Shown here in pieces: positions 49,042-50,673 of a DNA stretch of 64,000 nucleotides. How positions within the stretch are numbered: position 1 is the first letter of the stretch; every line of letters begins with the position of its first letter. Origin of the DNA: an uncultured Bacteriovoracaceae bacterium (GTDB lineage Bacteria; Bdellovibrionota; Bacteriovoracia; Bacteriovoracales; Bacteriovoracaceae); contig CATLOT010000008.1 in assembly GCA_950054155.1 (NCBI GenBank), positions 1 through 64,000 on the forward strand, read 5' to 3'. The translations under genes were made by a program, and so were the position numbers. Under the pieces are notes generated by a model. The model was not told the DNA's origin, did no database searches, and worked only from the letters and a program-made list of their open reading frames with translations.

Positions 49042-49284
49042 ATGTTAGACAAAAACTCCTACCCCAGTGAGCACTTCGTTCCTTTGACGGGAAATGATTA
49101 TCTTCTCGGACGCCTTACTCTTAATAAGGCCCACGATGGATTGACGATGGAAATTGATATTGTGCAAAAAGAATCGCGCAAGATTTTTCGCTCTGTGGGA
49201 AGGCTTTATCATCTAAGTGATGATGATGAAGCATTGCATCTCGGAATTCAAAAGTTAGCCGAGTTTCTTAGGGAGTCAAATTAA
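49042..49284 (+). CDS. Hypothetical small protein
   Basis: 80 aa, no signal peptide. Beta-strands (LTMEIDIVQKESRKIFRSVGRLY) then a helix (DDDEALHLGIQKLAEFL). Start ATG has GGGAG upstream. Function unknown. A palindromic structure immediately after the stop could end its transcript. Confidence 0.5.
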   Translation: MLDKNSYPSEHFVPLTGNDYLLGRLTLNKAHDGLTMEIDIVQKESRKIFRSVGRLYHLSDDDEALHLGIQKLAEFLRESN

Positions 49285-49322
49285 TGAGCGCATGCGCTCT
49301 TAGTCAGTCGAATTTTTGACTC
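49273..49322 (+). terminator. Nested palindromes after 80-aa gene, possible terminator or activator site
   Basis: GAGTCAAA (49273-49280) pairs with TTTGACTC (49315-49322) and encloses the perfect 14-bp palindrome GAGCGCATGCGCTC (49286-49299). There is no clean T-run. The inner palindrome sits about 135 bases before the sigma-54 promoter, a usual distance for an enhancer-binding site, so both readings are open. Confidence 0.4.
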
Positions 49323-49420: not shown

Positions 49421-49436
49421 TGGCACGCTCTTTGCT
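49421..49436 (+). promoter_or_regulatory. Sigma-54 (RpoN) promoter
   Basis: TGGCAC-N5-TTGCT, with GG at -24 and GC at -12 in correct spacing, matches the RpoN consensus at every conserved position. Predicted start is near 49447. It is followed not by a gene but by a short segment ending in a strong terminator. Confidence 0.8.
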
Positions 49437-49446
49437 TATATAATAA

Positions 49447-49538
49447 ACGTGTGTGTGTAGGAGCTACGAAAAAAGGATTTTTTCCAACTCCATCTAAATG
49501 TCTCTCGAAAAGCCCAGTTGGAAACAGCTGGGCTTTTT
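49447..49538 (+). ncRNA. Predicted sigma-54-dependent small RNA
   Basis: Between the sigma-54 promoter and the terminator lie about 90 bases without an open frame of note. The segment contains a nested hairpin (GGAG...AAAAAA-GGA-TTTTTT...CTCC) and ends in a GNRA-capped terminator stem. Two GGA motifs lie in loops, a layout seen in CsrA-binding RNAs. The regulator and target are unknown. Sigma-54 small RNAs such as Qrr, CrcZ and GlmY are precedents for the promoter class only. Confidence 0.6.
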
Positions 49539-49540
49539 GC
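49511..49540 (+). terminator. Rho-independent terminator with GAAA tetraloop
   Basis: AGCCCAGTTG (49511-49520) pairs with CAGCTGGGCT (49525-49534) across one G-T wobble, loop GAAA, then TTTTGCTTTT. This is a strong intrinsic terminator and lies before the 3' end of the convergent PepSY gene. Confidence 0.85.
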
Positions 49541-49565: not shown

Positions 49566-50087
49566 TTACAAAGAAGCAACAACCATCACTATTAACCCAA
49601 GTCCAAAAGCCGCTCCAAAGAGCGGAAGTCTCTTTTTAAGGCTAAGAGTAAGGATCATTCCTGAGAGGATAAGAAGAAAGAAGGCAATACCAAAAGCGAT
49701 CTGCACTTTCTTCATGAGTTTTGGACCGTGACCAAAGTGGAGCTCCTGAAGAATCTTGATCCAATTAGGTTCTACTTTTTTAAACGTCATCCCCGTGTCA
49801 GTTTTATGAACTTCATAGTGATCACGTGTGGCCGGGCGAAGGACGCTATGGTTGCCACGACTCTTAACGTACTCAAAATCAAAGTCGACCTTCTGCGTTT
49901 TAAAGAGGGCACGTATGACATCAGCATCAGTGGTGTAGGGAGTCTCCACGCTAAAAGCATCAGTTTTAACAGCTTCACCTTTGATGCCCAGAAGGTATTG
50001 GGTTCCTGACAGGGGAATGATGAAGAGGAGAGGAAGAAAGAGGCCTACAAGAAAGAGGTGAATCTTAAGCCACAGATTGCGAGACAT
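49566..50087 (-). CDS. PepSY-associated membrane protein
   Basis: 173 aa. An N-terminal membrane segment (LFLVGLFLPLLFIIPLSGTQYLL) is followed by a periplasmic domain, then LQELHFGHGPKLMKKVQIAFGIAFFLLILSGMILTL and a last helix. This matches PepSY_TM-like proteins, often linked to iron uptake or redox. Conserved His in LHFGHG could bind haem or metal. No neighbouring transporter gene. Confidence 0.75.
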   Translation of the reverse strand: MSRNLWLKIHLFLVGLFLPLLFIIPLSGTQYLLGIKGEAVKTDAFSVETPYTTDADVIRALFKTQKVDFDFEYVKSRGNHSVLRPATRDHYEVHKTDTGMTFKKVEPNWIKILQELHFGHGPKLMKKVQIAFGIAFFLLILSGMILTLSLKKRLPLFGAAFGLGLIVMVVASL

Positions 50088-50115
50088 AGGTGATCCTTGA
50101 GTAAAATATTCGGGA

Positions 50116-50673
50116 TTAACACCTTAATAAGTAATCTCTTAAATCACTGAGGTCAACCCGTAGGGGGCCTAGAGCTTCGGGATTTTCTCGCTCATGAATG
50201 AGTTGGGCTTGAGATAGCATTGCGTTAAGTTGATCGAGATTAAGATCATCTTGCGCTTGGGGTTCACTGGTTGAGAAATTGAGGGGGCACCAATCGCGAA
50301 GTCTCTCCCCTTGCTCAGACTTCAAACTAAGCGCCATCCCCTGTGTTCGACAGAGGCTAGGTCGCGCTTCGTAAATAGAGCAGGAGTCTCCTCGTAAGAA
50401 GGCACAAGGCCGGTCTTCATCACCATCGCTATTAATGAAGGGCTGGTTTTGGCTTGAGGGAACTTCTTGTCTTTCTTTCCAAGCGGCTTTTTGCTCAGGG
50501 CTTAGGGCATGAAACCAATCCGTAATGATGGCAGCTTCCCAGGCGAAGACACTTAACCCTCCGACACAGCAGCGGCTGCAGCCTTGGGCGCAGGCCATGT
50601 CTTCTTTATATTTTTCAAAGAAGGCGTTAAAGCTATGTTCTGCTTTTCGTTGTAGGGGTTTGAGGTCACTCAT
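50116..50673 (-). CDS. YkgJ-family cysteine cluster protein
   Basis: 185 aa. Cysteine clusters CAQGCSRCCVG, CAFLRGDSCSIYEARPSLCRTQG and CPLNF match the YkgJ family, thought to bind iron or zinc. Start ATG 50673 lies within the end of the ureohydrolase gene (8-base overlap), so the two are translationally linked. An ATG at 50700 is less likely. Function not established. Confidence 0.8.
   Translation of the reverse strand: MSDLKPLQRKAEHSFNAFFEKYKEDMACAQGCSRCCVGGLSVFAWEAAIITDWFHALSPEQKAAWKERQEVPSSQNQPFINSDGDEDRPCAFLRGDSCSIYEARPSLCRTQGMALSLKSEQGERLRDWCPLNFSTSEPQAQDDLNLDQLNAMLSQAQLIHERENPEALGPLRVDLSDLRDYLLRC

Follow-up and report, generated by a model that had tools for sequence, protein, structure and literature searches.

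The window analysed here is a stretch of 64,000 nucleotides from an uncultured Bacteriovoracaceae bacterium, and one of its intergenic regions carries what appears to be the gene of a small RNA. The upstream neighbour is an 80-amino-acid open reading frame (ORF) at 49042-49284, on the same strand as the RNA, and the downstream neighbour is a convergent PepSY-type gene at 49566-50087. Between them, at 49421-49436 on the plus strand, pattern matching finds a sigma-54 promoter of the -24/-12 type, TGGCAC-N5-TTGCT. This RpoN consensus had been pointed out in a preliminary description of the sequence, and it is indeed the single match in the window, even when one mismatch is allowed. As chance would give a window this long about 1-1.5 matches at one mismatch, the box alone proves little. 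The promoter predicts a 5' end at 49447 and an intrinsic terminator predicts a 3' end at 49538, which would give an RNA of about 92 nt on the plus strand. The terminator (hairpin and T-run, 49508-49538, plus strand) is real, with a 12-14-bp stem, a GAAA loop and a T-run ending at 49538, and the interval between promoter and terminator, described as gene-free, contains no ORF of note.

The predicted RNA consists of a single-stranded GUGUGUGU, a hairpin with the loop AAGGAU (hairpin 1), a single-stranded UGUCUCUC and the terminator, in this order and all on the plus strand. The 5' single-stranded part, GUGUGUGUGU at 49449-49458, is a possible base-pairing seed and has GTGTGTG in 66/66 distinct sequences. 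Hairpin 1 (49460-49491) shows compensatory changes in its stems: in 4/4 pairs of the outer stem GGAG/CUCC (49460-49463 with 49488-49491) and in 3/6 pairs of the inner stem GAAAAA(A)/(U)UUUUUC (49468-49474 with 49478-49484). Its loop, AAGGAU at 49473-49478, contains a GGA at 49475-49477 and is a putative CsrA site. A second possible seed, UGUCUCUC at 49499-49506, has GTCTCTC in 62 of the 66 sequences. Folding of the whole segment gives -31.9 kcal/mol (z -4.0), and 0/200 shuffles were equally stable. Upstream of the promoter there are two candidate enhancer sites, listed without a strand, each with one mismatch to GTCA-N6-TGAC: GTCAAATTAATGAG at 49275-49288 and, 32 bp from it, GTCGAATTTTTGAC at 49307-49320. 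The stop codon of the 80-amino-acid ORF (plus strand) overlaps the first of these sites; this ORF has no Pfam or NCBIfam match, and relatives of it are found at 28 of the examined loci, mostly in an equal position.

Distribution, structure and coding potential

When the 120-base segment is compared with 59 relatives by BLAST, clear homologues are found in about 20 genomes of its own family, with identities of 73-98% over half to all of the segment. A search of related genomes with covariance models had been proposed in the preliminary description, and here both promoter and structure turn out to be conserved, with covariation. A model built from 23 sequences finds the RNA in 100 of 129 Bacteriovoracales genomes, essentially in single copy in each, and in 64 of the 73 good assemblies of the order. 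Records carrying it are labelled Bacteriovorax, Halobacteriovorax marinus, Bacteriovoracaceae, Halobacteriovoraceae and others of the same group; one Halobacteriovorax marinus isolate has it. No RNA was detected in two genomes of the window's own genus (G002 and G004), whose assemblies are possibly incomplete. Among 240 genomes of the phylum outside the family, the covariance search gave no convincing case and one weak match (G183), which consists of the tail of a coding stretch with the terminator behind it and has neither the promoter nor the conserved motifs. Rfam searches of the window and 20 relatives returned no family match at the gathering score, and a lax threshold added sub-threshold chance matches only. 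A literature search on Bacteriovorax small RNAs found no relevant paper in the library covered, and one on Halobacteriovorax and RNA-seq found no transcriptome study of that genus. Conservation of this kind (BLAST homologues, 100/129 model matches, and a promoter at every one of 51 distinct loci) means that the segment is not a chance feature.

Structure was assessed on 51 distinct sequences aligned to the covariance model. Standard pairs make up 93% across these sequences, 15 of 22 pairs have changes on both sides, and the covariation score of 0.481 exceeds that of shuffles (0.212) and of slid structures (0.161 at the highest). These figures lean towards the structure, because the alignment was fitted to the model. 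Even so, the structure is hard to doubt, since the slid controls score lower and the terminator stem turns over, with 8 of its 12 pairs compensated. The sequence of this stem varies between relatives with compensatory changes. The GNRA cap named in the preliminary description is incidental: the loop, GAAA in the window, differs between relatives.

A conserved reading frame had been named beforehand as the finding that would count against an RNA gene; it was looked for among the relatives and not found, and none of the start codons opens a consistent frame. A short peptide gene under sigma-54 control is accordingly very improbable. Most members do have ATG, GTG or TTG at UGUCUCUC, and in several a peptide beginning MSLEK could be read, but the ORFs from this start scatter from 6 to 80 codons, those from the commonest GTG start scatter from 4 to 79 codons, and the stops fall inside the terminator or past it. 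Equally hard to credit is a leader or riboswitch-like attenuator that acts in cis on the downstream gene. The intergenic position with a terminator at the end would suit it, as would three examined loci with a following gene no more than about 110 bp away on the same strand; the downstream gene runs convergently at most loci, that of the window among them, which largely refutes such a leader, and there is neither an Rfam riboswitch match nor an evident alternative antiterminator. What is strongly supported by these comparisons is a conserved non-coding RNA gene with a sigma-54 promoter, a tandem enhancer and a terminator. The preliminary claim of a stand-alone sigma-54 small RNA, new to the lineage as far as the literature covered goes, is thus upheld by the conserved promoter, structure and terminator and by the lack of an Rfam match. 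It is a small RNA uncatalogued so far, kept across nearly the whole order of mostly predatory bacteria. That it is a real small RNA under sigma-54 and enhancer control is almost certain, transcription itself being predicted from the sequence.

Promoter, tandem enhancer and diverged forms

Upstream DNA could be read at 51 distinct loci, and every one of them has the sigma-54 promoter, 11-14 nt before GTGTGTG. Sites of the form GTCA-N6-TGAC, with at most one mismatch, lie upstream in 45 of these 51 loci (mean of shuffled upstream regions, 2.3), and 28 of the 45 have two or more such sites, typically about 32 bp apart. The enhancer had been placed elsewhere in the preliminary description, at a palindrome at 49286-49299. 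This palindrome is 14 bp long and lies where it was said to lie, but it is not a conserved element, and the enhancer role falls to the GTCA-N6-TGAC sites between which it is found and which it touches. The gene for sigma-54, rpoN, is present in the window's own genome and most relatives (56/59 in all).

Searching whole genomes for the exact tandem GTCA-N6-TGAC pattern gives matches in 40 of 129 genomes of the order. In 36 of them the tandem lies 76-158 bp from the covariance match, distances that depend on strand, and the remaining four belong to genus g60, which has a diverged form of the RNA. A further match close to the end of a contig is seen in two genomes, and one of these also reads into the RNA. 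What follows the exact tandem, wherever it is found in the order, is the RNA, its diverged form in g60 or a partial copy where a contig ends. A reversed control pattern matches nowhere, and outside the family the exact tandem is found in only 7 of 240 genomes. As exact pairs stand only before the RNA or its diverged forms, an enhancer-binding protein largely dedicated to it is suggested, and the simplest reading of the sequences is that the strong tandem site of one such protein serves this RNA alone. This protein would bind the two sites, which in the window precede the predicted start by about 125-170 bp, and, once activated, would let sigma-54 RNA polymerase transcribe the small RNA. Its gene was not recognised among the neighbours of the RNA, whose flanks of 1.5-8 kb showed no GAFTGA motif. 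An enhancer pair apparently used for this RNA alone means that the activator may be a dedicated switch.

In g60 the promoter and enhancer are kept, and the RNA behind them lacks GUGUGUGU and UGUCUCUC. This RNA has two A-N-GGA motifs, for example GAGAAAACGGAAUUUCUC and GAAAACGGAUUUUC, in which N is C, U or G while the A and the GGA are constant; in some cases one or both of the GGA hairpins are missing from the minimum-energy fold. The form in G075 keeps enhancer-like sites, the promoter and the GGA hairpin and has lost UGUCUCUC. These diverged small RNAs, in L204-L207 (g60) and L218 (G075), are missed or scored weakly by the covariance model and were recognised by their enhancer sites and promoter.

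GGA hairpin, CsrA and possible mRNA pairing

The GGA in the loop of hairpin 1 is found in 66/66 distinct sequences, and 63 of them have A at the ANGGA position, two bases before it. A second GGA, 5' of the loop GGA, occurs in 54 of the 66, often inside the outer stem; in the window the two motifs are 12 nt apart. The preliminary description had seen GGA motifs in two loops and likened them to CsrA sites. For one hairpin, with its GGA at 49475-49477 in a conserved loop and the ANGGA context kept, this likeness stands; for a second loop it does not, as the GGA at 49460-49462 lies basally in the hairpin and the one in the terminator loop is not conserved. The consensus of CsrA/RsmE is ANGGAN in a hexaloop (PMC7652899), and a CsrA dimer can bridge GGA motifs 10-63 nt apart (PMC7652899), a range into which the 12 nt of the window fall. 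The main argument for CsrA is that the GGA motif survives divergence, in the ANGGAN context. CsrA, like RpoN, is close to universal, being encoded in 50/59 and 22/23 relatives. The window's own genome also encodes csrA, adjoining fliW, together with flgL-like and flgK genes; flgK, the flgL-like gene, csrA and fliW form one cluster (L212, 5984-9516, G000:C1), which is the FliW-CsrA arrangement of the lineage. Classical CsrA sponges carry several GGA motifs, and the several GGA hairpins that mark Csr/Rsm sponges are not seen here, where the main form has one invariant hairpin. The balance tips slightly towards the RNA binding CsrA. The weak A/U hairpin would present AAGGAU in its loop, and the loop would bind a CsrA dimer and titrate CsrA when the RNA is abundant.

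The two single-stranded stretches suggest a second activity: single-stranded GUGUGUGU and UGUCUCUC would probably pair with mRNAs, and for pairing by UGUCUCUC, judged as a separate claim, the chances look about even. No gene for Hfq was found in any of 59 genomes (0/59), and control genomes such as E. coli gave matches; CsrA may therefore also be the protein partner for pairing. The RNA could also be purely base-pairing and trans-acting, in the outline of Qrr or GcvB, using UGUCUCUC and GUGUGUGU, with the GGA hairpin serving stability or a protein other than CsrA. In its favour, the two stretches hardly vary and are left unpaired by the predicted fold, but g60 has neither and still keeps enhancer, promoter and GGA motifs, and we consider such an RNA rather unlikely.

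Its candidate target would be the DUF3450/ExbB (TonB-type) operon of the window's own genus. Around the start of the DUF3450 gene there are three copies of GAGAGAC in six of seven genomes of the genus and fewer in the seventh; one copy is at the Shine-Dalgarno position, and one copy of GAGAGACAT overlaps the gene start, with a MotA/ExbB-type gene next. In a sample of 467 kb, GAGAGAC is clustered within 60 nt at this leader alone; the sample is biased in that it was chosen partly around GAGAGACAT sites. In a ranking of duplexes over 424 gene starts the leader came 5th for the UGUCUCUC stretch, and for the GU stretch none of the ranked targets was convincing. On the other hand, the window's own genome shows no enrichment of GAGAGACAT, with 28 sites where the reversed word has 33, and outside this genus the DUF3450 gene was found just once in the family. 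The terminator hairpin preceding the gene has GUCUCUC in its own loop and is a possible local partner. G002 and G004 have the array with no small RNA detected, so the array may answer the local hairpin and not the small RNA. The DUF3450 leader is thus a lead, not a result. The array itself lies at about 49700-50480 of G000:C20 (minus strand) and also in L280, with the copies of the genus in L252-L258. The hairpin shows GUCUCUC in its loop on a variable stem, and pairing control may be in cis or in trans. Hairpin loops in general show no enrichment of GUCUCUC worth mentioning (7/98, against 141/2878 for control words).

Taken as a whole, a small RNA controlled by sigma-54 that binds CsrA, and that probably also pairs with mRNAs through GUGUGUGU and UGUCUCUC, is the reading we favour with reasonable though limited confidence. 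FliW is a protein antagonist of CsrA. A more tentative extension is that the small RNA and FliW both antagonise the same CsrA, such that a signal arriving via a dedicated enhancer-binding protein would reach flagellin and lifestyle control in predatory bacteria. According to a 2020 review, joint control of CsrA by FliW and small RNAs was undetermined in any species (PMC7652899). If CsrA is bound, control by FliW plus a small RNA becomes directly testable, and the Halobacteriovorax marinus isolate that carries the RNA is a ready test organism. The interest of this regulatory RNA is that it spans an order, essentially as a single copy per genome, and that RNA regulation in these mostly predatory bacteria is almost unexplored.

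Comparison with known small RNAs

The same phylum includes Bdellovibrio, with its attack-phase small RNAs, three of eight of which have FliA promoters (PMC3627812), and with merRNA, a 445-nt RNA with a c-di-GMP riboswitch (PMC3627812). Unlike these, the present RNA belongs to a covariance model without a convincing match outside Bacteriovoracales. It differs from Hfq-dependent base-pairing small RNAs in that none of the 59 genomes searched gave an Hfq gene. With CsrB/C, RsmX/Y/Z, McaS and GadY it has in common a GGA in a hairpin loop, in an A-N-GGA context, and many members have two GGA. McaS and GadY both base-pair and bind CsrA. In contrast to CsrB/C and RsmX/Y/Z, there is a single invariant GGA hairpin, control is by sigma-54, and FliW is also encoded while Hfq was not found.

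Stand-alone small RNAs under sigma-54 are GlmY in enterobacteria, Qrr in Vibrio, and CrcZ, CrcY and NrsZ in Pseudomonas. Members of this family are free-standing short RNAs with a -24/-12 promoter, upstream palindromic enhancer-binding sites and an intrinsic terminator. GlmY shares these features (PMC6075780), and the QseF/GlrR sites before glmY are TGT-N12-ACA (PMC6075780). The GTCA-N6-TGAC sites described here have the same half-sites with two bases fewer between them; further differences from GlmY are that the present RNA has no Rfam match and, judged by the GAFTGA motif in its flanks, no activator gene as a neighbour. In its outline, a short free RNA with a -24/-12 promoter, palindromic upstream sites and a terminator, it is like GlmY, Qrr, CrcZ, CrcY and NrsZ.
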